NCBI GenBank assembly: GCA_030431635.1 | Contig: JAUIIL010000012.1 | Span: forward strand, 1 to 64,000 | DNA length: 64,000 nucleotides | From: Bacteriovoracia bacterium | GTDB lineage: Bacteria > Bdellovibrionota > Bacteriovoracia > Bacteriovoracales > Bacteriovoracaceae | Reading direction: 5' to 3' | Shown here: piece by piece, positions 18,885-45,014 of the stretch | Position numbering within the stretch: position 1 is the first letter of the stretch | Layout of the letters: the number at the start of each line of letters is the position of its first letter | The notes under the pieces: model-generated | Databases searched by the model: none | Seen by the model: only the letters and a program-made list of their open reading frames with translations | What the model was told of the DNA's origin: nothing | Program-made: the position numbers and the translations under genes

Positions 18885-20051
18885 TTATGCCGCCTCTTTT
18901 TTAATTAATGTGGGAATACTTAGCGCAGTGCCATCAGTCTTTTTTGGGGTCGGAGAAGTCAAAAATTGAAGCTTCTCCGTAGCACCTTTCTCACTGATAC
19001 CAGAAAGCCTAATATAGATCTGAAAGCTCTTAATATCCTTCCAGCCTCCAATTAGCCTCACTACTGATGGTTCAACACCAGCAGCCAGCAAATGCGTAGC
19101 AAAGCAAGCTCTGAGCGTGTGAAATCGTACTGAGGGAATCCCTATATGGTTGCAAAACTCTCTTAAGACTTTTGCTTGCTCCCTTCCTTGCCATTCCTTT
19201 AGGCGAGGAAGTAGGAATTCTCCATCTGGGTTTGCTTCCATAATTTCTAGAAGAAGTTTTTTTAGGTCTTCTGAAATTGGTACATTTCGCCAGTATGATT
19301 TCTTAGTAGGCTTAAGCCTTTCGTTCAAAAAATCCCATGAGTTTGTGATCCGAATTAATCCAAGTTCAAAATCAATTGATTCTTTTCTTAGGGCATAAAG
19401 CTCACCATTACGGCATCCTGTATTGAGGGCCATTGCCCATACATGATACCAGGCATGATCTAGCCTCTGAGCTTCAGACAAAAGCCTTTGGCACTCTTCA
19501 AGGGTCAAAATCTCCTTAATCTTATCTTCCTGTTTAATTTTAAACTGAAGATTATGAACAGGGGACACAGTAACTCCCTTGATGATTCCTTCCTCAATCC
19601 CATAGTTATAAACTGTATTGATGGCACACTTGATTTTTCGAGTATGAGACTTTGACAGTCCAGAGTCTAAAGCTTCTCTTAAGACTTTCTTTCCATGTCC
19701 TCTGTTTAGATCTTCACAAGGAAGTTCTAACCAGCTTTCAGTCCATTTCTTAAGTGTGTTTACTATTCCATCAATTGTTTTGTCGCTGAGATCGCTGAAA
19801 TAACCTTGTTTAGCATCAAATTCCCAACGTCCAATAACAACTCGCCAGATTGAGCTTGTGCCTTCTCTGTGAGCTATTTCTTGAACAATCTCTTTAAGGT
19901 ATTTTTTTTCAATTCTAAGGGCCTCAGCCTGTGAGGAAATCCCTTTTCTTCGTTTTTGAATACGAAGTGTGGGGATTTTTTTACTCCTTACATTCACATA
20001 TACCTCATAACGCTTGGTATTTTCATCATCATTGTACGTTCTAATTGCCAT
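18885..20051 (-). CDS. Tyrosine recombinase (integrase)
   Basis: 388 residues. The catalytic domain holds Arg in NTGCRNGELYALR, the HxxR box in FHTLRACFATHLLAAG, and the nucleophile Tyr in GGWKDIKSFQIYIRLSG. The N-terminal arm-type binding and core-binding regions precede. It lies at the left end of the conjugative module next to an excisionase-like gene, so it probably integrates and excises the element. Confidence 0.9.
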   Translation of the reverse strand: MAIRTYNDDENTKRYEVYVNVRSKKIPTLRIQKRRKGISSQAEALRIEKKYLKEIVQEIAHREGTSSIWRVVIGRWEFDAKQGYFSDLSDKTIDGIVNTLKKWTESWLELPCEDLNRGHGKKVLREALDSGLSKSHTRKIKCAINTVYNYGIEEGIIKGVTVSPVHNLQFKIKQEDKIKEILTLEECQRLLSEAQRLDHAWYHVWAMALNTGCRNGELYALRKESIDFELGLIRITNSWDFLNERLKPTKKSYWRNVPISEDLKKLLLEIMEANPDGEFLLPRLKEWQGREQAKVLREFCNHIGIPSVRFHTLRACFATHLLAAGVEPSVVRLIGGWKDIKSFQIYIRLSGISEKGATEKLQFLTSPTPKKTDGTALSIPTLIKKEAA

Positions 20052-20675: not shown

Positions 20676-20744
20676 TTTAAGTCCTCCGTTTTGTTAAAAA
20701 AACGAGAAGACCGCTTTGTGGTAGTAGGTTTCTCTTTGGTTAGG

Positions 20745-22646: not shown

Positions 22647-22971
22647 GGGACACAAGTAGTTCTCTAATTTTTGAAATATCATCAGAACACTCTTCAAACG
22701 AACTGTGCCAACCTTTCCTAAAACCACTATTTAGGTGTCTTGCAATTTGATTAAAATTGTTTCCTATTCTTTTAAGTTCAGTCACAATTTTATTGCAACT
22801 ATCTTGAGGCATAAGCGGTCTGTGAACTGCTTTGTTTAAAAGACAAGACTTCGCATAGCTATTAACTTTTTCGCCTCTTTCATTTGCAATTTTCTCAATA
22901 TATGAAAGTTCTTCTTCTGTTACTCTTAAGTAAATAACAGGTCTTTTCTTTTTGTTTGATTTATTATCCAT
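22633..22971 (-). CDS. mobC: MobC-like mobilisation accessory protein
   Basis: 112 residues from the ATG at 22971, which has AAGGAG; the frame opens 11 codons earlier. An N-terminal ribbon-helix-helix (VIYLRVTEEELSYIEKIA) is followed by the MobC signature ELKRIGNNFNQIARHLNSG. It helps the relaxase open oriT. It overlaps the relaxase start, the usual mobC-mobA arrangement. Confidence 0.85.
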   Translation of the reverse strand: MDNKSNKKKRPVIYLRVTEEELSYIEKIANERGEKVNSYAKSCLLNKAVHRPLMPQDSCNKIVTELKRIGNNFNQIARHLNSGFRKGWHSSFEECSDDISKIRELLVSHVSA

Positions 22972-23032
22972 AGACTTCTCCTTTGTATTAAGAAAAGTCC
23001 TCATTTGTGATTGTTGACTTCTTTAGATTTAT

Positions 23033-29102: not shown

Positions 29103-29182
29103 GCTAATACTCCTTTTAAGTATTTAGAAAGCAGCATTTCAAAAGTGGTTGTTATGCTGATTTAATTTATTAGATTTAATAA

Positions 29183-29437
29183 TTACTTAATTTCTAATTC
29201 TAACCATCCTCCCAAGAATCTATCTCCATTTGGAAGTACAGACTTATGTCTCCAGGCATAGACTGTAAAAGATTTGGCCTTTCTTTTTGGCTTATTTTTG
29301 TGATTCTCAAGACTTAAATCTTCAACATCTTTGAAGTATTCAGCTCTATTTTCAAGCATATTCTCTGCCTTATCTGAACTGGCGCAGCCAACAAGCAAAC
29401 TATTTAACAAGATGCTTAAGCAAATTAATTTCTTCAC
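29183..29437 (-). CDS. Small TraV-like lipoprotein
   Basis: 84 residues with lipobox LLVGC and a basic patch KNKPKRKAK before a compact C-terminus (VYAWRHKSVLPNGDRFLGG). The start overlaps the end of traB by 38 bp. F-type systems place the lipoprotein traV between traB and traC, the same position as here, so a core-complex lipoprotein role is likely, though TraV homology is not visible. Confidence 0.5.
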   Translation of the reverse strand: MKKLICLSILLNSLLVGCASSDKAENMLENRAEYFKDVEDLSLENHKNKPKRKAKSFTVYAWRHKSVLPNGDRFLGGWLELEIK

Positions 29438-30104
29438 GTTCCTTCCTCCTTTTTCTTAAATTAAAGTATGACTTAGGCAAGATTACTTTTTCGTTCATAA
29501 TGACAAAGACATCTCGTCCACTTTTTACATTTAGTGTTGCTGATAAGTTTTGAGCTTGTTGTAAATACCACTGGGCAACTGACGTTGCTGCATTTGAAGC
29601 TCCTTGTTGAACTATAACATTTGATGTGTTTGTGTCAGGGTTGGCCCCACCAATGTTTTGAGCCTTTCTATTTATGATTTCTCCGATGCCATTGACAATG
29701 GAGTTCATAAAGGCCATTTGTGCAACTCTTGATTGGTTGGATTTCAATTCAGCTTTAATTGCTAAGTTCTGGTCTTTGTTATCTACAACAAAGCCATTTA
29801 CTTTGCGTTCAAGCATTTTTCCTTTTGGTGATACACAACTAAGTTTATATACCTGAAACTCAATCCTTTCTGTACTCATTGATGCCTGGGCTTTGGCAAG
29901 AGCGAAGCAGCCTGATAAGTCTATTTTTGACTCATTGGGTCCTGTATAAGATTTCTCTAGGACTAGTAGAGATGGAGATATTTTTCCCTCTGGAGTTTGG
30001 ACACCTGTCATTAATTTGGCCTTCACATAGCTCCCAGGTGGGACAACAACATTCAACTTTTGTTTTTTCTTCTTAATGGGAAAATTCACCATCTTTTTAG
30101 CCAC
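29400..30104 (-). CDS. traB: TraB (VirB10-like), C-terminal part in the -1 frame
   Basis: 234 residues are listed from a GTG at 30104, but the frame is open back to 30247 and has no good start. It carries the TraB core-complex domain: NVVVPPGSYVKAKLMTGVQT, LSGCFALAKA, YKLSCVSPKGKMLERKVNGFVVD. The N-terminal anchor and coiled coil are in the upstream frame (30125-30601). A -1 shift at the A AAA AAG heptamer 30215-30209 joins both into a 400-residue protein (F TraB has 475). TraB bridges inner and outer membranes in the secretion channel. Confidence 0.8.
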   Translation of the reverse strand: MAKKMVNFPIKKKKQKLNVVVPPGSYVKAKLMTGVQTPEGKISPSLLVLEKSYTGPNESKIDLSGCFALAKAQASMSTERIEFQVYKLSCVSPKGKMLERKVNGFVVDNKDQNLAIKAELKSNQSRVAQMAFMNSIVNGIGEIINRKAQNIGGANPDTNTSNVIVQQGASNAATSVAQWYLQQAQNLSATLNVKSGRDVFVIMNEKVILPKSYFNLRKRRKEREEINLLKHLVK

Positions 30105-30124
30105 TCTTTTTTTGGTTGAGGATT

Positions 30125-30601
30125 TTACGACAAAGTCTTTTGAGTTTTCGGCAATTGGTCCTGATAATGGAATTTGATTTTCAACTGTTTTTGCACTCGT
30201 TGATTCAACTTTTTTCCATAATGTTCCTTTAGTTTCTTTAATACATCATCCTGGGCAGTGGGTTCTTCATTGAGTTGGATACTGTTTTGTTTTTCAAGTT
30301 TTGTTAATGCGATTTGCAGGTCTTTGATCTGCTTATGGAGCTTGTCTTGAGAATTCTTAACGGTATCATATTGTTTTGACAGGAGCCTATCCTTGGTTTG
30401 GTAATAGTCAGATGCTCTATCAAAAACAATGTCACCACCCTTGAAGTCAGATGATTTTGATTGAATTACAACTGATTCCTTAAAATCAGAATTTTTACTA
30501 AAGGCATACATTGATAAAACCACAATAGTTATCATGCCGATAACAATATATTTTTTCTCATCTGAGTTGAGGTTATACATAAAATCAAAAATCCGATTCA
30601 T
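30125..30601 (-). CDS. traB: TraB N-terminal part (zero frame up to the slippery site)
   Basis: 158 residues if translation does not shift. Residues 19-35 form the inner-membrane anchor (VIGMITIVVLSMYAF) and 70-105 a coiled coil, the standard N-terminal layout of TraB. After residue 131 (YGKK) the zero frame adds 27 residues of basic nonsense-like sequence, while the -1 frame continues into the TraB core domain. The start overlaps the traK stop by 4 bp. Confidence 0.75.
   Translation of the reverse strand: MNRIFDFMYNLNSDEKKYIVIGMITIVVLSMYAFSKNSDFKESVVIQSKSSDFKGGDIVFDRASDYYQTKDRLLSKQYDTVKNSQDKLHKQIKDLQIALTKLEKQNSIQLNEEPTAQDDVLKKLKEHYGKKLNQRVQKQLKIKFHYQDQLPKTQKTLS
30181..30230 (-). promoter_or_regulatory. 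Predicted -1 frameshift element in traB
   Basis: The zero frame reads GGA AAA AAG TTG, giving the heptamer A AAA AAG at 30215-30209. AAAGGA at 30230-30225 is a Shine-Dalgarno-like motif 9 nt upstream, as in E. coli dnaX. Five nt downstream TCAAC (30203-30199) can pair with GTTGA (30185-30181). A -1 slip leads to GTT GAA TCA and into the TraB core domain. Confidence 0.6.
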
Positions 30602-31377
30602 TTTTTGCCTCCATCTTTTAATTTAGCTGTCGTCATTGGTAATTTAGTGTTCTTGTAGTTAGAACTAGGCTCTGTAACAACTCTTAGAAATGTTTCGTAT
30701 GTTCCATTATTCTTAGGGTAAAGGACAGAATGATCTGATTGACTTAATACTGCCAGGTCTGGACTTCCAAAAGTTACATTTCTTACATCAATGTAAACAT
30801 TATTCTTTTTTAAGTGGTTAGTTAGTTTAAAGACATAGCCATTCATGTTTCTTCCCTCGTATGTTCTAACGAGTCGAGAGCTAACACCTCTTTGCTTAAA
30901 GTTAACAGATTTGCTTACCTTTTTTCGCTTGAATCCAGATACCTGTGAGTCCTTAACCATTGCTTTAAGCAAGTCAACTTCACCAATAACAGGTGCTTTG
31001 GAAGGATTTGAATAAGTCTTTGATTTAAAGATGTAGGTTGTCTCTTTGAAAGTAGAAGAATCATTGACTTTCGTTTTGAACTTAATTCTAGCAATCTTTC
31101 TATCTTCTAAAACAAATGATACCTTTTCTCTGCCTGAAGTGAATTTCGGAACAATAACTAAAGTTGTATAGTCAGGATCATTTTCATCTTCAGCTTTAAT
31201 CATATAGTTTTTGGCTGTTGAATAGCTCTTGACTCGTTTTTCAAATTTTAAAACTGTGGGTTCTCCAAAAGGTACTTCAAGTGTTTTTGTTGAAGTGCCA
31301 AAAAATACCACTTTTTCATTCTCTGCAAACGAATTCATGGTAAAAAATAATGAATAAAACAATATAAAATACTTCAT
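30598..31377 (-). CDS. traK: TraK-like (VirB9/secretin-type) protein
   Basis: 259 residues with a Sec signal (FAENEK). The C-terminal domain has GYVFKLTNHLKKNNVYIDVR followed by VLYPKNNGTYETFLRVV, matching the TraK family. It forms the outer-membrane core with TraB and the lipoprotein. GAGGAG precedes the ATG. The gene order traE-traK-traB is that of F. Confidence 0.75.
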   Translation of the reverse strand: MKYFILFYSLFFTMNSFAENEKVVFFGTSTKTLEVPFGEPTVLKFEKRVKSYSTAKNYMIKAEDENDPDYTTLVIVPKFTSGREKVSFVLEDRKIARIKFKTKVNDSSTFKETTYIFKSKTYSNPSKAPVIGEVDLLKAMVKDSQVSGFKRKKVSKSVNFKQRGVSSRLVRTYEGRNMNGYVFKLTNHLKKNNVYIDVRNVTFGSPDLAVLSQSDHSVLYPKNNGTYETFLRVVTEPSSNYKNTKLPMTTAKLKDGGKK

Positions 31378-31386
31378 GATACTCCT

Positions 31387-32076
31387 CTAAATAGGTTTCC
31401 TGGAAAAATTGTTTATTTGAAATGTCCATTCTTGGTCTGGTTTGGGTTGCTGAACAATCAATGTCATTTCAATTTTTTCAACTGCTGTGCCTAAAAACTC
31501 TGCGTTTTCACGACGATCCCTTCTGATTATTGCCTTAACTTTGAAAACGCCACTTTTTCCATCATAAGGAAATTCAATTTTTGTAGGCTCAACTTGTTCA
31601 TAGATTCCCTTTTTCTCTGCTAAAGAAACCCATTCATCAACATCAGCTAAAAAGTTTGATCTCAATTTTGGTTCCATATAGCTTGCAAATCTGCCGAGTT
31701 GATCTCGAATTCCACTTGGAGTTGTTGTGCCAGCCATCTGGATAAATGATTTTATCGCAGATTTGACATAGGATTTTGGAACAGACTGAGGTGTAGCGGG
31801 AGTGTGGCCTACAATTTTTGAGGGTACTAATATAAATTCTTTTTCCCTGAACTTTGATTGCCAAAACTCAATTCTGTTATTTTGAATTACAAAAGTAGAA
31901 AGCCAAGCTGCGCCAATAAGTATTATTAAAAAATGTAGATTAATTTTTTCTTTCATTGTTGCTGCTTTATAGCTGACAAATTTAGGTAAAACTCTCAAGT
32001 CTACTTCACCGTAAACACCAGCAGGCGGCTTACTTAATTCAGCCGCCTTTATCCCTTTGTCTATTGCATTAAGCAT
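31387..32076 (-). CDS. traE: TraE-like (VirB8-type) protein
   Basis: 229 residues from the ATG at 32076. The frame is open upstream to 32295, but that part shadows the 80-aa gene. Residues 46-64 are a single membrane anchor (LHFLIILIGAAWLSTFVI). The periplasmic domain ends with EKIEMTLIVQQPKPDQEWTF, as expected for TraE. It nucleates inner-membrane assembly. It overlaps the preceding gene by 8 bp. Confidence 0.7.
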   Translation of the reverse strand: MLNAIDKGIKAAELSKPPAGVYGEVDLRVLPKFVSYKAATMKEKINLHFLIILIGAAWLSTFVIQNNRIEFWQSKFREKEFILVPSKIVGHTPATPQSVPKSYVKSAIKSFIQMAGTTTPSGIRDQLGRFASYMEPKLRSNFLADVDEWVSLAEKKGIYEQVEPTKIEFPYDGKSGVFKVKAIIRRDRRENAEFLGTAVEKIEMTLIVQQPKPDQEWTFQINNFSRKPI

Positions 32077-32311
32077 TTCCTTGTTCCACCGAGCTATTGC
32101 TATTGTTTGCCTCAAAAAGATCGCCTTCACCTTGTTTTTTGAGGCTATCCAACTCAACCTTAGAAATGTAACTCCTCGGCACAACATGGATAGTAATGTC
32201 TTTAAAAACCCAATATTTGCCATCTTTTGAAATGGATGCTTTAAATTCTCTATTTGGTTTGTGCTCATAAAATCCTCTCCCTTTTTTCTGTTCATTTTGT
32301 TTCTTGTTCAT
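32069..32311 (-). CDS. Small conserved-type hypothetical protein in the transfer operon
   Basis: 80 residues, basic N-terminus (MNKKQNEQKKGRG) then a short beta-rich core (FKASISKDGKYWVFKDITIH). There is no signal peptide or family. It lies 9 bp after traL and overlaps traE, so it is co-translated. Possibly cytoplasmic. Confidence 0.55.
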   Translation of the reverse strand: MNKKQNEQKKGRGFYEHKPNREFKASISKDGKYWVFKDITIHVVPRSYISKVELDSLKKQGEGDLFEANNSNSSVEQGNA

Positions 32312-32320
32312 AATTTCTCC

Positions 32321-32632
32321 TTAATCTGAATAGCGTTTATTGCCTCTTGGGTTAATTAAGCCTTTCAGTTCCATTTTTAGAGCTTTATAAGGCCAGTGAA
32401 TTAATATTCCTCTGTTGTAGTGTTTTTTGATGTACGGGTTGATTGCCAGTGTCCATACTAGTGATACGAGCAGTAAAACCCATGAATAAAAAATAAGCCC
32501 AAAAATGAGAATTGAGGAAAGGCAGAGTAAAAGATCACTTAGTTCCCAAATGTTAGCGAACATAATAGGTGAATCTAATGTCTGACTGATTCTACATCCA
32601 TGAGTCTTTTTTAATTCTTTATAGCTGTGCAT
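32321..32632 (-). CDS. traL: TraL-like pilus assembly membrane protein
   Basis: 103 residues. It has an N-terminal SQTLDSPIMFANI resembling the start of TraL, two close hydrophobic segments (residues ~30-65) and a basic C-terminus with HWPYKALKMELKGLI. Length and position between pilin and traE match F traL. Confidence 0.7.
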   Translation of the reverse strand: MHSYKELKKTHGCRISQTLDSPIMFANIWELSDLLLCLSSILIFGLIFYSWVLLLVSLVWTLAINPYIKKHYNRGILIHWPYKALKMELKGLINPRGNKRYSD

Positions 32633-32640
32633 ACATTCTC

Positions 32641-33036
32641 CTATCTAAAGACACCGCCGCCACCACCAATTTCAAAAATATTTACAACCCAGGCAGGACT
32701 TGATCCGATAACTAGTGCGCCAAGTACACACACTACAGCAGGCCCAAATTTTTGTTCCTTAATGAGCCAGCCGCTTGATAAGATACAAAGGCCAGCTAAA
32801 ACTCTAGCAAGCCATACAAAGATTGCTGTATCTGCTAGTCGAAGCAATGTTCCTGCACTTTGAAGTTTCTGTGATTGATCTTGCCCAGGTATCCTTACCT
32901 GTGCGTGGGTTTCAGCAGCTATAATTAAAAGCGGCAACATTATTGCGCCAATAATTATCAACCAATGATTGTGCTTATCCCATAGTTCTTGGAATGTTTT
33001 CCGCGAGCTAAGGGTAAGCGTTAAGATGGTATCCAT
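32641..33036 (-). CDS. Conjugative pilin (TraA/VirB2-like)
   Basis: 131 residues with a long leader, hydrophobic IIIGAIMLPLLIIAAETHA and a likely cleavage after THA. The mature ~85 residues have two membrane helices separated by KEQKFGP and end in a Gly run (IGGGGGVFR). This is the layout of VirB2/TraA propilins. AAGGAGG lies directly before the ATG, fitting high expression. A 6-bp hairpin (TCGCTC/GAGCGA) lies in the leader at 33053-33080. Confidence 0.7.
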   Translation of the reverse strand: MDTILTLTLSSRKTFQELWDKHNHWLIIIGAIMLPLLIIAAETHAQVRIPGQDQSQKLQSAGTLLRLADTAIFVWLARVLAGLCILSSGWLIKEQKFGPAVVCVLGALVIGSSPAWVVNIFEIGGGGGVFR

Positions 33037-33088
33037 CTTACCTCCTTTGTTAGCTCGCTCGCTTTTTTGTAGTAGAGCGATTAGATGT

Positions 33089-33694
33089 TTAATTTTTGCT
33101 TTTTAGTAGTTGTACTATGTTTTCAATTTGAGTTGGTGTCTGATAGCCTTTTATCGGTTCAGATATAACTTTACTTTTTAAATCAGCAATTAATACAAAG
33201 GGAACACTTGTTATATTGTGTTTCTTTACATCTTCTGGATTTGCGTGGCTAATTTTTAAAGGGAAATTTGCTTTATAGAGACTCCCTTTGTTTAATTGCA
33301 TGGCTTCTACATAAAGACCCTTTTTTTGCAAAGAATAAAGTGTTTGCATCATTCTTTTGCAGTGAGGACAAGTTGACTCAAAATACATTCTTAATCTGAA
33401 TCTATTGTAATCTTTTGTATTGAGTGCATTTTGTTTATACTTTAATCCTTCTAAAGTTTTAGGTGGTATTTTTCTCAAGTTATTATTCTTGGAGATATAC
33501 TCATTTATTCTACTTTGAAGTCGCTTTGCTAGTTTACTTTTTGTGTCCAAATACCTTAACCACAGAGAGATGTTTCTATCTGATGGGTTTTTTGCTACCT
33601 CAATAAAAGGAGCAGGAGGCTTATGATTTCCTTCCTTATAGAATTCCTCATTGTTTGGATCTAAGTGTTTTTCCCAGGAAAAGCTTTTATTCAC
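33089..33694 (-). CDS. traF: TraF-like thioredoxin-fold protein, main part in the -1 frame
   Basis: 201 residues from a GTG. The thioredoxin-like half begins RFRLRMYFESTCPHCKRMMQ with the CPHC active site and ends with cis-Pro TSVPFVLI. No signal peptide exists in this frame; it is encoded in the frame at 33742-33864. Joining by a -1 shift at 33751-33745 adds 40 plus 17 residues and gives 258 residues, close to F TraF (247). It acts in the periplasm on disulfides of transfer proteins. Confidence 0.75.
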   Translation of the reverse strand: MNKSFSWEKHLDPNNEEFYKEGNHKPPAPFIEVAKNPSDRNISLWLRYLDTKSKLAKRLQSRINEYISKNNNLRKIPPKTLEGLKYKQNALNTKDYNRFRLRMYFESTCPHCKRMMQTLYSLQKKGLYVEAMQLNKGSLYKANFPLKISHANPEDVKKHNITSVPFVLIADLKSKVISEPIKGYQTPTQIENIVQLLKSKN

Positions 33695-33710
33695 CTTTTT
33701 CCCAGCTTTT

Positions 33711-33751
33711 GAATCAGTTTCCTTATTGTTAGTTTCTGACTCTACTTTTTT
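33711..33751 (-). promoter_or_regulatory. Predicted -1 frameshift element in traF
   Basis: The zero frame reads GAA AAA AAG TAG, with A AAA AAG at 33751-33745 next to the stop. A -1 slip continues GTA GAG TCA into the TraF domain. GAGTCAG (33742-33736) can pair with CTGATTC (33717-33711), 7 bp with one G-U, beginning 2 nt after the heptamer. No convincing upstream Shine-Dalgarno-like motif is seen. Confidence 0.55.
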
Positions 33752-33864
33752 TCACTTGGCCAATAATCTATACCTTCTTCAAAGTAGCTTATTGCTTTAA
33801 CCTGTTTGACCAGGAAGAGGCTCAGTGCCAAAATAGTTGCCTTGGCGAAGTAATTCGTTTTCAT
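33742..33864 (-). CDS. traF: TraF signal peptide and N-terminus (zero frame, stops right after slippery site)
   Basis: A 40-codon frame from the ATG at 33864, overlapping the end of the ATPase gene. It reads as a clear Sec signal peptide (KATILALSLFLVKQVKA) followed by ISYFEEGIDYWPSEKK and TAG. The last two codons are AAA AAG of the heptamer A AAA AAG; without a -1 shift translation ends at once. Confidence 0.7.
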   Translation of the reverse strand: MKTNYFAKATILALSLFLVKQVKAISYFEEGIDYWPSEKK

Positions 33865-34984
33865 CTATAACTCCTTTTTTTACTAAGTTTAATGCAAGTG
33901 TTCCTATGTTTTGTTTTAAGTTGATGGTGTCACCCTGAATTTCATTTGCAGTAAAATACTCAAATATTAATTCTCTTGTGCCGTCGATTCCTCCGTTACA
34001 GTTTTGACAACCTTTCTTGTTAATAAGTTTTGAGTTTTTAAAAAGTTTTCCTTTTAAAGAACAGTGTTGACACAACCTAGCAATCAATCTTTGATTTACG
34101 CCCAAAATTAAAGAATTCATAAGTTGCAATTTATCTGCACCATAGTATTCAAATACTTTTGGGATATTTAGAGCAGTATTTGTATGCATTGTTGAGATTA
34201 CAAGATGGCCTGTAGAACCAGCTCGTACAGCAAGCTTTGCTGTTGCTTCGTCTCTGATCTCACCAATCAAGATAACATCAGGGTCTTGTCTCATTAATGC
34301 TCGTAATCCATCTGAAAAACTAAAGCTTGGAGTGATTGGGGTATGATTAACACCATCAATAGTTCTTTCAACAGGATCTTCCAAAGTTGAAACATTAAGT
34401 CTTTCTCTGTCAATATGCTCTATCATTGAATAGATTGTAGATGTTTTGCCACTTCCAGTTTCGCCAGTAATAATTATTAATCCTGATTTCTTTTCAAGAG
34501 ATTGTTTAACATCATTGAGTGCAACTTTGCTTAATCCAATGTCAGTAATCTTTTTAGTAGATGCTTTATTGAAGAGTCTAAATACAAATTTTTCTCCATG
34601 AGTGACAGGAGTCTTGTTTATTCGTATGCTCATACCTCTTTCGGGTAATTCGACACCTCCATCTTGTGCAATGTTTTGTTTGCCTAACTGAACATTAAAG
34701 ACAGATTTCAATGTTGTCGTGATACCATTTCTTAGTATATCGGGCTTGATAGAGTTATTTTTAGACTTTCTGAAATCATAAAATGTCATTAAAATGCCAC
34801 AAATCCTTAGTCGAATTTTGTAACCTTCTTCTGTTGGTTCAAAATGAATGTCGCTTGCATTTGCTGTAATAGCAGAGTCAATTGCATCTCTAATAAGGCC
34901 AGTGTAGGTTCCTGCCTGATTTAGTTTTTGTTCTGGTGATAGGGTTATGTGAATTGATAGCCCATTTTCTTTTTTAATCGACAT
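33797..34984 (-). CDS. GspE/PilT-family secretion ATPase
   Basis: 395 residues. Walker A GETGSGKTSTIYSMIEH, Asp box LEDPVERTIDG, Walker B ALMRQDPDVILIGEIRDEAT and the His box STMHTNTAL are all intact. A four-Cys zinc module (CQHC, CQNC) as in GspE/PilB follows. F-type transfer systems normally have no VirB11-type ATPase, so a type II/type IV pilus-style ATPase inside the operon is unusual. It could drive pilus retraction or assembly. The ATG overlaps the traU end; AAAGGG lies upstream. Confidence 0.85.
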   Translation of the reverse strand: MSIKKENGLSIHITLSPEQKLNQAGTYTGLIRDAIDSAITANASDIHFEPTEEGYKIRLRICGILMTFYDFRKSKNNSIKPDILRNGITTTLKSVFNVQLGKQNIAQDGGVELPERGMSIRINKTPVTHGEKFVFRLFNKASTKKITDIGLSKVALNDVKQSLEKKSGLIIITGETGSGKTSTIYSMIEHIDRERLNVSTLEDPVERTIDGVNHTPITPSFSFSDGLRALMRQDPDVILIGEIRDEATAKLAVRAGSTGHLVISTMHTNTALNIPKVFEYYGADKLQLMNSLILGVNQRLIARLCQHCSLKGKLFKNSKLINKKGCQNCNGGIDGTRELIFEYFTANEIQGDTINLKQNIGTLALNLVKKGVIDENELLRQGNYFGTEPLPGQTG

Positions 34985-36917
34985 TGGCCATCCCTTTGCA
35001 AACAGACTCTATAATTGCCAATTCGGCTTTATATACTGGAACTTCATACCATTCTTTTTTACAGCTAACCTGTTTCCATGTTGTAAATAGATTTCCTTGT
35101 AGGTTTTTCTTAACTAGTCTTCCTCTATTGTTGGCTTGTCTAATTGTTTCTAATCCTCCGATATTCTCAAATTCTCTAAAACAACTACTCGAATTAGGGG
35201 ATAGCATGGACCATTTTTCACTTGGGTCTGCTGGCATATTCTTGAAAACTTCTACTGAAAGACTTTTTATTCTGCTGGCAATAGATAAAGATCCAATAAT
35301 TTCTGATCCTCCAACTTGTGTTCCGTATCTGGGGAACATTACACCCCATCCTGTGCAGACAGGCATCGAAGATGGTGGAAAGACTGGAAGCACTTGAAAG
35401 GGATAGCTACAAGTTCCTGACCCTGCGCCCATACTTGAAGGGCGGCCACCTCCAATTGAGGTAGCCGCTCCTTTTAGTAAGCACAACTTTGGGCTTGCTT
35501 TCCAAGCAAGAAAAGCTGGCTGCATAAGATCGCCCTTACCTGTAGACCAATGTGGCTCGATATGTTCACTCATGCCATCAAAACAAAGTTTTTCCTGTCT
35601 TTCTCCACCACAGGGCATCCCAGAAAAAGCTAATTGAGTTAAGGGAACTGCTATAGTTCTGGCTTGGAAAGCTTGAGTATCATCATCATTAACAGCTCCG
35701 AAAGGTGTAGTCTTATCCACTCCCGCGAGCTGAGAAGCCGCTATGGGGAGAGTATTAAAGTGTGAGATACCTTTTGACGTAGTTGTTTCTATAAACGTCT
35801 GTGGGATGAAATATGAGATTCTAGCGCAGCTATGAGGTGGCAGAGGGAAAGGGCTTGGGCACATATCTGGAGTTACTGTAAAAGTCATGCAGGACCTAAA
35901 GCTAGGTTGCGCAATTACTGTGCAGATATTGGGAAAAGCATTGGCGGTACTTCCTGCCAGTAAAAATGGAGTCGCCTTTTTGATAAATCCTTTTAGTAAC
36001 CGCCAGGATTTTACCTTTTTAATTCCTGCCGCCTCATTGAGAATATCTTCGTGAGGTGTATTGGGTTTAGAAAGAAAGTTTGGCTTAGTATATATTTTTT
36101 GGAGACTAGTCTGAACACCATCAAAAACCAATGCCCATGCCTCAAAAATCTTAAGGTCCAAGAACTCTTTACCAGTTAATACCCATTCTTTTTGAGTAGA
36201 GACATTTACAGACTCGCTTATATTTGCATTTTCTGAGTCAAATCCTCCTAGTATAAAATTCCGTTCAGTTCTTTGGGCAATTTCTGAAATACTTCTGGAT
36301 TCTTTATTTTTTTCTGTTTGTCCAACAAGCATTTTAAAATTATTAATTGTTTTTTCGTCTTCTGAATGAAATGCAATTTTAGTTCTGAAGTTTTGGATAA
36401 ATTCATTAACAGCATTGTCATTTTTTACTGTGTTTAACAGTGACGAGTAACTTTGTGTTGCTAAGATGCAAATAGCGTTTGCTTCACGACACTTATCTAT
36501 AAATCTATCATCTCCAAGTGCGTTTCCACCGCCAACTGTAATTAGGCCCTGGTATTCATCGCCAAAGATAAACGCTGGGTGACTAGTCTTTCTGTTTGGG
36601 TTTGCAAGTCTGTTTAAAATTGACCTTTGATAATGCAGTTTAATCATTGTTCCCATTGATCTTGCTAAAGCATCGTTATCAATATCAACAAGAAGAATTT
36701 CACCTTTATCTATCACTGAATCCATTGATAGAATTGTTATCTCTTCTTTTTTTGGACAGAATATTTTCGATGATCTATACTCTTGAAACTGATTTAAGAA
36801 ACTAGTTGCTGTTGCAAGGATACCAGTTTTAACCTTTTCATCAAAATTTCTGAATTCCTTATTAAAAAACTCTATAGCGCAGTTTATGTTGTAAATTTCT
36901 TCAACATCAAATTTCAT
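34974..36917 (-). CDS. Fused frame: TraD/VirD4 C-terminal motor domain followed by TraU-like domain
   Basis: 647 residues. Residues 1-300 are the second half of a coupling ATPase: SHPAFIFGDEYQGL is Walker B and ICILATQSYSSLL is the sensor segment. At about 303-333 a basic plus hydrophobic stretch (LLKGFIKKATPFLLAGSTAN, then AF) resembles a signal peptide. The remainder has 11 or more Cys and TraU-like blocks (MCPSPFPLPPHSC, FSGMPCGGE, VCTGWGVMFPRYG). No stop or normal start separates the two. The frame is entered from traD 5' by a -1 shift at 36974-36968. Confidence 0.7.
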   Translation of the reverse strand: MKFDVEEIYNINCAIEFFNKEFRNFDEKVKTGILATATSFLNQFQEYRSSKIFCPKKEEITILSMDSVIDKGEILLVDIDNDALARSMGTMIKLHYQRSILNRLANPNRKTSHPAFIFGDEYQGLITVGGGNALGDDRFIDKCREANAICILATQSYSSLLNTVKNDNAVNEFIQNFRTKIAFHSEDEKTINNFKMLVGQTEKNKESRSISEIAQRTERNFILGGFDSENANISESVNVSTQKEWVLTGKEFLDLKIFEAWALVFDGVQTSLQKIYTKPNFLSKPNTPHEDILNEAAGIKKVKSWRLLKGFIKKATPFLLAGSTANAFPNICTVIAQPSFRSCMTFTVTPDMCPSPFPLPPHSCARISYFIPQTFIETTTSKGISHFNTLPIAASQLAGVDKTTPFGAVNDDDTQAFQARTIAVPLTQLAFSGMPCGGERQEKLCFDGMSEHIEPHWSTGKGDLMQPAFLAWKASPKLCLLKGAATSIGGGRPSSMGAGSGTCSYPFQVLPVFPPSSMPVCTGWGVMFPRYGTQVGGSEIIGSLSIASRIKSLSVEVFKNMPADPSEKWSMLSPNSSSCFREFENIGGLETIRQANNRGRLVKKNLQGNLFTTWKQVSCKKEWYEVPVYKAELAIIESVCKGMANVD

Positions 36918-36919
36918 TT

Positions 36920-38053
36920 TTAAGCCACCAACGTTAGAGGCATCACTTTTTGTGGTCGCCTCATTGACTTTTTTCTTTCAATGATTTCTAAAAGATCGTT
37001 TCCTAAATTTGTACTGGTGGCATTAATCATTGATTGATAAATGTCCTTTAAGGTGAAGTATTCCTTGATTGCGGCACAGTAAATCACACAATTTTTAATC
37101 AAGTTAAAAGCACTGATTTCCCAAAAAGGTGAATCAGATTTTCCGCCAGAAAAGTTAATTGCACTTGCTCTAACCATTTCTGCAATTTCTACGAATCTAG
37201 AGGACTTTAAAGCTTTGTCCATGTAAACAGGATTAAAGGATTCACTTCCATCAAGCATTAATCTTCTTACTTTACGATCCTTGTCATGATTAGCAATGAT
37301 TTTAACTGCATTTGGGATAAATGTTCTCTTTGGATCAAGGGCAAGAATTGATGATTTATTAAAGTTTGTTAAAGACTGTCTAAAAAAAGGAAGTATTGCA
37401 CCTGCAGTTTTTCCACTTCCAGGTGATCCTGTAATTAAAATTGATCCATTTAACGCTTTTTGTGGAATAGTGATCCATTTTTCAGTTTTGTCTTCATTTT
37501 GTGTAGTACCTATTGTGATTTGATTCTCTTCTTTAGGAATTGTTTTGATTCTTTTTTTGTTTCCTTGCGAAAACTGAAAAATGTTTAAAAAGTCTGCTGC
37601 TCGATAACAAAATAATGATAAGAGCATTGAGGCATTTATTGAATAAACTTGCTCAACCCATCCGAAGTATTTGAGCTGACGAATAAATACTGGAATGTCA
37701 CTGCTGAAAATGTTCAGAAGAGATTCAACAGTGATGTTGCAAACAACAGCAATAAATATAAATCCTAACAAATACCTTCTTTTACTGTTTTCAGCATCAT
37801 TAATATTTCGCAGTCTTGCTCCTTGCTTAGAAAGTGTTAAGAATCTCCTTATATAGAGAGAAAGAATAATCACATTTAAAAACAAACAAATCAGGAATGA
37901 ATATAGATAAAATGAAAACTGTTCATGTAGTAGATAGGCCCAATCACCAGCTATTAAAATATTACTTTTAAATTGAAGTCCCATAAAAAGTATAAAGACT
38001 CCAAATGCCAGTAGCAAAGCTACTGGCAAACTTATGTCTTTGTTATCATTCAT
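36920..38053 (-). CDS. traD: TraD/VirD4-type coupling protein, N-terminal part
   Basis: 377 residues if unshifted. Hydrophobic segments at residues 8-26, 44-66, 94-112 and 135-155 precede the nucleotide-binding fold with Walker A ILITGSPGSGKTAGA and SDSPFWEISAFNLIKN. The Walker B half is missing from this frame. After residue 362 (IIERKK) the zero frame gives 15 unrelated residues, while the -1 frame continues for 17 residues into the ATPase second half. The joined TraD would be about 675 residues (F TraD 717). The start overlaps the upstream gene by 4 bp. Confidence 0.8.
   Translation of the reverse strand: MNDNKDISLPVALLLAFGVFILFMGLQFKSNILIAGDWAYLLHEQFSFYLYSFLICLFLNVIILSLYIRRFLTLSKQGARLRNINDAENSKRRYLLGFIFIAVVCNITVESLLNIFSSDIPVFIRQLKYFGWVEQVYSINASMLLSLFCYRAADFLNIFQFSQGNKKRIKTIPKEENQITIGTTQNEDKTEKWITIPQKALNGSILITGSPGSGKTAGAILPFFRQSLTNFNKSSILALDPKRTFIPNAVKIIANHDKDRKVRRLMLDGSESFNPVYMDKALKSSRFVEIAEMVRASAINFSGGKSDSPFWEISAFNLIKNCVIYCAAIKEYFTLKDIYQSMINATSTNLGNDLLEIIERKKSMRRPQKVMPLTLVA
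36937..36974 (-). promoter_or_regulatory. Predicted -1 frameshift element in traD
   Basis: The zero frame reads AGA AAA AAG TCA, with A AAA AAG at 36974-36968. A -1 slip continues GTC AAT GAG. Five nt downstream GAGGC (36962-36958) pairs with GCCTC (36941-36937), and CAC (36954-36952) with GTG (36946-36944) inside it: a two-part hairpin at the spacing used by bacterial -1 frameshift signals. Confidence 0.6.
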
Positions 38054-39312: not shown

Positions 39313-40809
39313 TTGACTGTTAACATCTTAATTGTAGATGACCATTTAGACTCTAGGTTCAGTACGCAAGCTAGAGTCACTAAAATGTTTTCTGATTTAG
39401 ATTCTAATGAACTAATCATTAAAACTGCTGCGACCATTGATGAGCTATATGCTCAAATCAAAGAATTTAGTTTTCATGTTATTTTACTTGATCGTGACCT
39501 TGGTAAGGATTCTGAAGGCAAGATGATTGATGGTGTAGAGCATATTGAAAACATCTTAGAACTAAGGCCAAAGACAAGATTGTATGTCCTAACAAGCTTT
39601 GAGGACATATCTCTAGCAAATAAGGCTAGAGATTATGGTGCCCATGGATATTTAACTAAGAATCCTTCTGAAGAAAATCAGAGATATATAGATGCTCAAA
39701 TCAAGCAAGCTGTTAAGGATTCTCAGCTTGAACTTGAGTTTGAGAGAATTAAGGCTGTAAGAGATTCAAGAGCGGCCACTTCTTATGTGAGTAAATCTCA
39801 TTCAATGAAAAGAATTGAAGGAAATCTTAAGTCATTAGCTGAGATAAACACACCAGTTCTTATAACTGGTGATTCAGGTCTTGGGAAAACCTATACAGCC
39901 AAAAGACTTCATAAATTAACAGAAGAATTTCATGGCGAAAAGAATAGAGCTTTCTTGTATAAAGATATAAATACAATTCCTAAAACATTACAAATTTCCG
40001 AACTGTTTGGGCATGAGAAAGGATCATTCACTGGTGCTAGTGAGCGTAAAATGGGGCTATTTGAGTTGGCAACAGGCGGAACTTTATTTCTTGATGAAAT
40101 TGGTGATGCTACACCTGAACTTCAGGGGGCATTACTTAATGTAATTGAAGAAAAGAGCTATAGAAGGCTTGGTGGAAAACAAGATTTAAAGATCAATGCA
40201 AGGATAATATTTGCAACAAACAAAAACCTAGAAGCTCTTGTAGCATCTGGTGAGTTTCGCCGTGATCTTTATGCTAGAATTTGTGCCATTGAGATTGAAA
40301 TGCCACCACTTAGTGAGAGAAAAGAAGATATTCCATTAATATGTGAATTTCTTTCTGGAGAAATAAATCGTGAAAATGGAAAAAATATTTCCTTTAATGA
40401 TTTTCCAGCTACATTGAAACAGTATTTTGTAAGTGCGAATTTCCCTGACAATATTAGGGGAATTCGGAACGACTTAGTAAGACTTGCAGCATTTTGTCCA
40501 ATAAAGCAAAGCGGAAAAGTGGACTATAGCTCATGGCGTTCTATTTTAAACTATACAAAGAAGCCTAATCATCAAAATCGTATTTCTCAAAAAACATTAG
40601 ATTCAATAGTAGAAGAGTTGGCTCAGTATGTAGGTTCACCAAATGGTCCAGGTTTGGCAGCAGCTTTAGATCTACTAGAGTATAAGTCATTAGAATATGC
40701 CTCCAGTAAGTATAAAAAACGTGTAAAGCAGGCTGAAATATTAAAGTTGAAACCATCTACGCTACAAACAAAGAAAAATAAATATTTTAAAAAAGAACTG
40801 AATGGATAG
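39313..40809 (+). CDS. NtrC-type sigma54-activating response regulator
   Basis: 498 residues from a TTG preceded by GAGGGG. The receiver domain (1-130) has VDDH and the phospho-acceptor Asp in ILLDRDLG. The AAA+ domain has Walker A GDSGLGKT, the sigma54-contact loop GSFTGA (a GAFTGA variant) and Walker [12 protein letters not shown]. The C-terminus ends in a helical DNA-binding region ([19 protein letters not shown]). It probably activates the divergent transfer operon. A lipoprotein and a histidine kinase gene follow directly. Confidence 0.88.
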
Positions 40810-43694: not shown

Positions 43695-45014
43695 ATGAGA
43701 AAAGATAGAATTAAATCTTTAGAGAAGTCTGTTGTTTGGGTCCTCTTGATCTCAGGCATCATTGTATCTTCTTTATACTTTATTCTTCAAAAAAATAAAT
43801 ACACAGAATACGGAGATAAAATATCATCTTATATTCAAGAAAGGGAGTATGAATTAGCGGAAAGTATTTTAGAAAAAACAAATTTAAAATCCACTGAAAA
43901 TGCTTTCAAAGTAATTCAATCATTTAATGCTTCTGCCTACATAGTATCTGATTCAAATAAAGCTATTTTTGAATGGCCAAATGGTGCATCAGCTATTTTG
44001 AAGTCATGTAAGAATACCGTTAATTACTCACTTACCCGTGGAATACCTGTTGGGAAGGTTGAGGTTTGTTTGTCTTCATCTAAAATTGCGAAATCTACAT
44101 TTACCACAGGTTCATTTTTAACGACCTTATTTCTAGTTATGTTCTCTTTGGCAGTCCTTTCTTCATTTATTTTGGTCGGATATAGAAAGTCTCTGGAAAA
44201 ATCATTAGATTCAACAATGCTTGAACTGACAGCCTGGAACAGAGACTCTAATAAGAAACTTAATATTTCCTCTGATGATAGACTCACAAATAAGATTTTG
44301 AACCTTGTAAAGCAAGGTTTTGAAACGAGACTTGAGCTATCCGAGGTTAAGGCTGATTTTGATAAGGAAAAGGAAGTTAATAAAGTTATCCGCCAAGTTG
44401 CCCATGATATTCGTGATCCAATACGTTCTGTTGTAACAAATATTAATCTTGTAAATGAAAATCTCGATGATACTACGAAGAAGGTTATAAATTATTCTTT
44501 AGAGCGAATTGAAGAAACATTTGACGATATTTTAAAGACAAAGCGCAAATCAAATGAAGATGCCGCTAAGAGAGCTAAAATTGTTGATGTAAAACCAATT
44601 TTAGAATCATTAGTTGAAAGGAAGAAGGAACTATATTCTGATATTAATTTCCAGTTAATTACACCTGAGAAAGCTAATGCTTTGTGTTCACCGCCTGAGT
44701 TTAAAAGAGTTATCTCAAATGTAGTTAACAATAGTATTGAATCTTTGGATAAAGGAAAAAAAGATATAACAATTGAAGTGGTTCCTTTAGATAGCAGACT
44801 TCAAATTACACTTACAGATAATGGCAAGGGAATCCCTAGTGAATATTTGGACGTTGTGTTTGAGGAGGACTTTACTTCTGGAAAGGAAAATGGAAATGGG
44901 CTAGGTCTTTTTTATGCTTCAAAGAAAATGGAAGAGTGGAATGGAGAAATTGGCGTAAGGTCTGAAATAGGATCTGGTACAGAGTTGAAAATGGAGTTTC
45001 AAACAACTCTTTAA
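43695..45014 (+). CDS. Membrane sensor histidine kinase
   Basis: 439 residues with membrane segments at about 14-31 and 139-160 and a ~105-residue periplasmic sensor between them. The H-box is RQVAHDIRDPIRS. The ATPase domain has NVVNNSIESL (N box), DNGKGIPSEY (G1) and NGNGLGLFYASKK (G2). It is the likely partner of the NtrC-type regulator two genes upstream and thus a controller of transfer. Confidence 0.88.
   Translation: MRKDRIKSLEKSVVWVLLISGIIVSSLYFILQKNKYTEYGDKISSYIQEREYELAESILEKTNLKSTENAFKVIQSFNASAYIVSDSNKAIFEWPNGASAILKSCKNTVNYSLTRGIPVGKVEVCLSSSKIAKSTFTTGSFLTTLFLVMFSLAVLSSFILVGYRKSLEKSLDSTMLELTAWNRDSNKKLNISSDDRLTNKILNLVKQGFETRLELSEVKADFDKEKEVNKVIRQVAHDIRDPIRSVVTNINLVNENLDDTTKKVINYSLERIEETFDDILKTKRKSNEDAAKRAKIVDVKPILESLVERKKELYSDINFQLITPEKANALCSPPEFKRVISNVVNNSIESLDKGKKDITIEVVPLDSRLQITLTDNGKGIPSEYLDVVFEEDFTSGKENGNGLGLFYASKKMEEWNGEIGVRSEIGSGTELKMEFQTTL

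Follow-up and report, generated by a model that had tools for sequence, protein, structure and literature searches.

The window, the whole stretch of 64,000 bases analysed here (bases 1-64000 of contig C11, within the 3.3-Mb genome G000), carries on its minus strand, at 23.7-38 kb, an F-like conjugation cluster, and a coupling protein, TraB/TrbI, TraC, TraF, TraK, TraH, TraG, TraU, a relaxase, MobC and an integrase are encoded in this one cluster. The joined TraD and TraB products (see below), the relaxase and MobC gave Pfam matches, and the joined TraF matched the TraF family below the family cut-off; the remaining genes were named from their position and likeness, and the gene order is kept in relatives. 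Two identifications were made by reading of the sequence alone: a tyrosine integrase (18885-20051) and, between traU and traF, a VirB11/GspE-like ATPase (GETGSGKT, IGEIRD; 33797-34984, minus strand), which is unexpected for F-type systems. At the start of traE, two ORFs (32069-32311 and 31387-32295, minus strand) share about 230 nt, read in different frames; both are kept in G049 and G213:C8 and are possibly true overlapping genes. The tra operon is adjoined by genes for a sigma-54-type response regulator (39313-40809) and a histidine kinase (43695-45014, plus strand), which are conserved across elements and probably exert transcriptional control. A tRNA-Ala(GGC) gene just past the end of the window (contig C11 64422-64497; L067 4423-4498) is a possible integration site; a search for attachment-site repeats revealed no second copy of its 3′ end in the window. 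The same genome contains a second T4SS (L063; G000:C1:238500-258400), 47% identical, with unbroken traD and traB, in which no hairpins of the kind described below were found.

Three genes of the cluster end prematurely. The traD ORF (38053-36920), the traB ORF (30601-30125) and the traF ORF (start at 33864) all stop short, the remainder of each gene lies in the −1 frame, and an in-frame A AAA AAG is the sole feature common to the three breaks:

36968-36974, minus strand: slippery heptamer A AAA AAG of traD; 0-frame AGA AAA AAG
33745-33751, minus strand: slippery heptamer A AAA AAG of traF; 0-frame GAA AAA AAG TAG
30209-30215, minus strand: slippery heptamer A AAA AAG of traB; 0-frame GGA AAA AAG
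34974-38053, minus strand: traD-traU reading, 1026 aa; 0-frame from 38053 to 36968, then −1 frame to 34974
33089-33864, minus strand: traF reading, 258 aa; 0-frame of 40 codons with a signal peptide, then −1 frame
29400-30601, minus strand: traB reading, 400 aa; 0-frame with membrane anchor and coiled coil, −1 frame with TrbI domain

The earlier note on this DNA had reported the in-frame heptamer and the −1 continuation in traD, traF and traB, and we reproduced both the coordinates and the direction. Its joined lengths of 258 residues for TraF and 400 for TraB were also recovered; its estimate of about 675 residues for TraD was not, because the traD frame stays open through a traU-like gene, giving a joined product of 1026 aa. 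A traD-traU fusion is usual among relatives, in the form of a single unbroken ORF of about 1000-1050 aa.

As judged by pN and pS, the parts of the three genes beyond the junctions are under purifying selection (0.16 vs 0.68 for traB, 0.24 vs 0.81 for traD and 0.28 vs 0.79 for traF). Three broken genes within one operon could be taken for the decaying pseudogenes of a dead element. However, such strong constraint on the downstream parts, with pN well below pS, speaks against decay, as do breaks that are common to elements at 57-77% protein identity and that are all −1, and we give this explanation next to no weight.

The breaks recur in relatives. Altogether, 22 sites were found, in ten places and 8 genomes, the seven besides G000 being MAGs from separate projects where named; every break is −1, and its residue is mostly unchanged. 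The traD, traF and traB genes of G213:C8 (from JAUICP01, a MAG with a SPAdes name) share their break positions with the window, with A AAA AAG at every junction and a −1 continuation throughout. The same holds for traF and traB of G049 (CALGWV01, a MAG), whose traD is unbroken, the whole cassette being absent from a linker. In group 2 (G016, G033, G060, G089:C9, G213:C7 and G300) and in a third lineage, G089:C4, traF and traB are broken at matching linkers, counted as far as the contigs show these two genes. In the traB genes of L074 and L082, the shift is confined to overlaps of 28 and 16 nt, with no run of more than three bases, and both homopolymer error and transcriptional slippage are therefore excluded at these two sites. 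The window sites, all of which are A6-A7 runs and exactly one base short, do look like a typical homopolymer error, and the loss of one A per homopolymer during sequencing or assembly would account for them; but independent genomes, including the SPAdes-named MAG, are broken at the same residues, the L074 and L082 traB genes shift in the absence of longer runs, and covarying hairpins are conserved at the sites (see below). For the family, the comparison of genomes has already refuted sequencing error, and its probability is negligible.

These comparisons bear on three points of the earlier note. Its view that the breaks are not a sequencing problem is borne out by the same genes breaking in seven other genomes, two sites being without a homopolymer longer than three; and the heptamers, whose conservation in close homologues it had proposed as a check, are kept in the three genes of G213:C8 and in traF and traB of G049. 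It had also counted uninterrupted homologues against its reading. Such homologues do occur (G049 traD and most distant relatives), but they do not amount to a refutation, because other lineages are broken in the same way. In a tree built on TraC, elements with frameshifts make up three lineages, group 1 (100/100), group 2 (100/100) and G089:C4, and unbroken relatives lie between them. The breaks sit in variable linkers, and traF and traB are broken jointly in every lineage where both are visible; two group 1 members have the traD frameshift, and traD of group 2 and of G200 consists of two genes with separate starts. Repeated gain or loss in the same gene pair, traF and traB, argues for a function.

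In group 2 and G200 the coupling protein is divided, with Walker A on one side and the FNPVY motif on the other (L062, about 6700; L069, about 4440; L071; L073; L074; and L072, about 4340). It appears as a natural two-piece TraD, in which the second half has a Shine-Dalgarno sequence and an ATG of its own, in overlap with the first half. A +1 slip at xTT TAA in the group 2 traD was considered and rejected, since the second half is preceded by AGGAG, 6 nt from an ATG that overlaps the end of the first half; the open two-gene form in G200 also counters it. Bypassing or an inserted element in the group 2 traB was rejected as well, as the slippery A_AAG, the 5-nt spacer and the stem match those of traF. 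In G200, traG (L072, about 17900) is apparently interrupted around codon 50, where the frames overlap by 28 nt. Among viral contigs, no relatives were found.

All of the sites share one layout, that is, a slippery motif, a 5-nt spacer, and then stem, loop and stem. In the window, the hairpins are the following:

36937-36962, minus strand: traD hairpin GAGGC[gaccacaaaaagtgat]GCCTC, 5 nt past the heptamer
33712-33741, minus strand: traF hairpin AGTCAG[aaactaacaataaggaaa]CTGATT
30181-30203, minus strand: traB hairpin TCAAC[ga GU gcaaaa AC a]GTTGA, 5 nt past the heptamer

A stem begins about 5 nt past the slippery motif at 20/20 sites examined, and dinucleotide shuffles yield equally good stems with a frequency of only 0-0.022 per site (20 sites). 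Hairpins at the frameshift sites also fold better than shuffled sequences, with z of about −2.5 to −3.1, in five of the six tested. The outer stem covaries: all five pairs vary on both sides, and 92.6% of the cells are paired, vs 59% after shuffling. By comparison, such a hairpin is absent from two of the four further in-frame A AAA AAG motifs that were found in the window's unbroken tra ORFs, and is weaker at the other two. In a search of the whole genome G000 with covariance model R1, the three sites scored 34.6-35.6 bits and the next match 23.6, a genome-wide count of frameshift signals that derives from model searches. R1 also gave two strong matches outside its training set, in G300:C648 and G060:C49, each falling exactly on the traF break of its genome. 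An inspection by eye for pseudoknots of the loop with sequence further downstream showed a possible one in the window traD alone, and it is not conserved.

The slippery motif is A AAA AAG or A AAA AAA at the traD and traF sites and in the traB of group 1 and L081; in the group 2 traB it is an A_AAG tetramer (GCA AAG, with three A). The genome has a single tRNA-Lys, with anticodon UUU, a condition under which slippage at A_AAA_AAG is greatest in E. coli (PMC5009743); A_AAA_AAG and, among tetramers, A_AAG are the motifs of their kind that shift most readily in that organism (PMC5009743, PMC4066793). Transcriptional slippage on the A-runs, instead of ribosomal frameshifting, would suit the A6-A7 runs of the window, but the group 2 traB shifts at only three A, and a hairpin 5 nt downstream has the spacing of a ribosomal stimulator; we consider slippage by the polymerase very improbable. 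It is equally hard to believe that two polypeptides are made, with the downstream parts re-initiating as the second halves of traD seem to do in group 2 and G200, where a Shine-Dalgarno sequence and an ATG lie at the break. In the window an ATG at 36917 adjoins the traD stop, but in G213:C8 there is no start near the traD junction; moreover, the downstream part of TraF would have no signal peptide and that of TraB no membrane anchor, and the slippery motif and covarying hairpin would be left unexplained. By these lines of sequence evidence, traD, traF and traB almost certainly carry genuine −1 programmed frameshift signals, and the proposal of real −1 frameshifting in core T4SS genes is upheld by conservation in 8 genomes, the covarying hairpin, purifying selection and the single tRNA-Lys(UUU).

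Hairpins of the same form are found in 5′UTRs of these elements. Folding gave a two-helix structure, formed by a variable outer stem, an asymmetric NA/A (or C) internal loop and a covarying 2-bp inner stem, and closed by an A/C-rich loop of 6-9 nt of the ACCACAAA type. Four such hairpins lie in the window:

22993-23022, minus strand: mobC 5′UTR hairpin (ATG at 22971), loop AACAATCACAAATGAG; the 3′ arm can pair with the Shine-Dalgarno sequence
29131-29160, minus strand: traC 5′UTR hairpin CAGCAT[AACAACCACTTTTGAA]ATGCTG
33055-33080, minus strand: traA (pilin) 5′UTR hairpin TCGCTC[TACTACAAAAAAGC]GAGCGA; the 3′ arm can pair with codons of the traA start region
20704-20734, minus strand: 5′UTR hairpin of a 110-aa gene after the relaxase, GAGAAACC[TACTACCACAAAGC]GGTCTTCTC; matching copy in G049:C121

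A search with the loop sequence of group 2 (see below) found it at the tip of further 5′UTR hairpins: before traC (G049 and G200), traA (G200 and G256) and mobC (G351), before mobC and past the relaxase of G213:C8, and before mobC and a serine recombinase gene in a mobilizable element of G016. This probable mobilizable element (L126; G016:C53:94000-106000; mobC-like, relaxase-like and serine recombinase genes) lies on a different contig from the T4SS of G016. In G189, a descriptor scan detected a family hairpin, TGGCC ta CG acaaaa CG c GGCCA (L078 353, minus strand), followed by a Shine-Dalgarno sequence and a start, downstream of traG.

Among 35 hairpins, in alignments that were made by hand and are biased towards structure, 94.7% of the cells pair in the two-helix structure, vs 54.8% after shuffling, with compensatory changes in both helices; the inner 2-bp stem forms in 29/29 distinct interiors (3.1 expected). 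Model R3, trained on 13 UTR hairpins alone, recovered 11 frameshift hairpins among its best 16 matches in 465 kb, and a plain structural descriptor gave 34 matches on both strands of 24 loci, mostly known frameshift or UTR sites. In group 2, the loop ACGRCCRCAAACGA is identical in traF and traB of one element; as it is read in different frames in the two genes, the RNA itself is conserved. The bare loop 15-mer was not above background across the phylum (14 matches vs 17 for the reversed control), and the signal is therefore carried by the hairpin context. No Rfam family matched at the gathering score (124 kb, 4227 families). The family is not uniform: the traF and traB loops of group 1 fit the UTR loop consensus loosely, in some frameshift elements (group 2) no UTR hairpin could be recognised at either traC or traA, and in G200 the UTR hairpins occur in the absence of frameshift sites. 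On covariation and model recovery, it is highly probable that the frameshift and UTR hairpins form one RNA family, which supports the idea of the earlier note that the genes are coupled to one translational switch, and does so more strongly than that note could foresee.

In the UTRs, the minimum free energy structure is an alternative fold and not the hairpin in 10/10 cases, being more stable by 1.0-7.5 kcal/mol; in this fold the 3′ arm of the hairpin pairs downstream, usually over the Shine-Dalgarno sequence or the start codon. Forcing the hairpin opens the Shine-Dalgarno sequence in seven of the ten UTRs and leaves its openness unchanged in the other three, and the duplex formed by the 3′ arm is better than 95% of shuffles in 6/10. 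The modelled folds suggest that the UTR copies would resemble an ON switch if something stabilises the hairpin.

Taken together, the sequences point to an RNA regulon, in which genuine −1 signals and a shared hairpin, with a common factor that we infer, would switch the transfer genes together; we give this reading a probability of about 0.7. When the ribosome does not slip, the sole products would be a truncated TraD (the Walker A half), the signal peptide of TraF plus a short tail, and the membrane anchor of TraB; the full coupling ATPase-TraU fusion, periplasmic TraF and the TraB channel scaffold would come from frameshifted translation only. Upon induction of transfer, a common factor (a protein, a small RNA or a ligand) would bind the hairpin, opening the start sites in the UTRs, and the same stabilisation of the hairpin at the frameshift sites would raise −1 slippage, so that relaxosome, pilus and channel would be switched on together, post-transcriptionally. 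A shared trans factor is favoured at about even odds, on the strength of the UTR folds and the shared hairpin, and the chances are evenly balanced that one such factor recognises a single hairpin and, by its location, either frees start sites or triggers −1 frameshifting.

A 73-aa protein encoded before traD, common to groups 1 and 2, was considered as the factor and not adopted: elements that lack the sites also gave weak matches to it, and at the G200 locus it could not be found. For an antisense RNA from the element, no complement to the loop was found beyond the hairpins' own opposite strands; short pairing may still occur.

Frameshifting at a constitutive, set ratio would also be compatible with real −1 signals. 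The hairpin would then act purely in cis, the ratio of short to long product would be fixed as in dnaX, and the likeness to the UTR hairpins would reflect common descent or the use of one stable fold, with no trans factor. A slippery motif with a nearby stem suffices in E. coli (PMC5009743, PMC4066793), the site hairpins do beat their shuffles, and no candidate for a factor was identified. However, within one element the traF loop agrees in detail with that of traB despite the different frames, the frameshift sites are recovered by the UTR-only model R3, and a mechanical stimulator need not keep an internal loop and inner stem. A set ratio therefore seems to us rather unlikely, though it is the alternative to the regulon that we take most seriously.

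Programmed frameshifting in bacteria is known mainly from dnaX, prfB, copA and insertion sequences, with one site each time. The sites described here resemble those of dnaX and the IS3 family in the A_AAA_AAG motif, the −1 direction, the stem close downstream and the single tRNA-Lys(UUU), but differ from them in that three core T4SS genes are targeted at once, the structured hairpin family is conserved and common to 5′UTRs, and the frameshift product is a full-length, presumably functional protein. In ICEMlSymR7A, one +1 site in msi172/msi171 yields the excision activator FseA (PMC5009743). The transfer of that integrative and conjugative element relies on programmed frameshifting (PMC5009743), but the single site governs a transcription activator of excision, with no shared hairpin and no T4SS structural gene. 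In cardioviruses and arteriviruses, a factor that binds the RNA beyond the slippery site determines how efficiently frameshifting occurs (PMC5009743, PMC4937337); those are eukaryotic viruses, whereas here the factor is inferred and the RNA motif also occurs at start sites. As in riboswitches and protein-bound operators, the hairpin and a fold predicted to sequester the Shine-Dalgarno sequence would exclude each other, and the bound form would be ON; unlike bacterial 5′UTR switches, the motif has no Rfam match and is reused within coding sequence as a frameshift stimulator. In a literature search that covered few subscription journals, no report was found of frameshifting in T4SS structural genes, or of one RNA motif as both 5′UTR switch and frameshift stimulator.

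The analysis points to a previously undescribed control of conjugation at the level of RNA. Frameshifting would here govern three structural components of a secretion system, and it recurs across separate T4SS lineages, always in the traF-traB pair; in annotation, genes broken in this way would be filed as pseudogenes. If the regulon is true, it would be a bacterial frameshift switch controlled in trans and acting on several structural genes at once, with mobilizable elements bearing the same hairpins. If the common factor exists, bacterial frameshifting would here be regulated by a separable controller that is amenable to genetics, and the system would illustrate how an element silences a costly, envelope-spanning machine after transcription.
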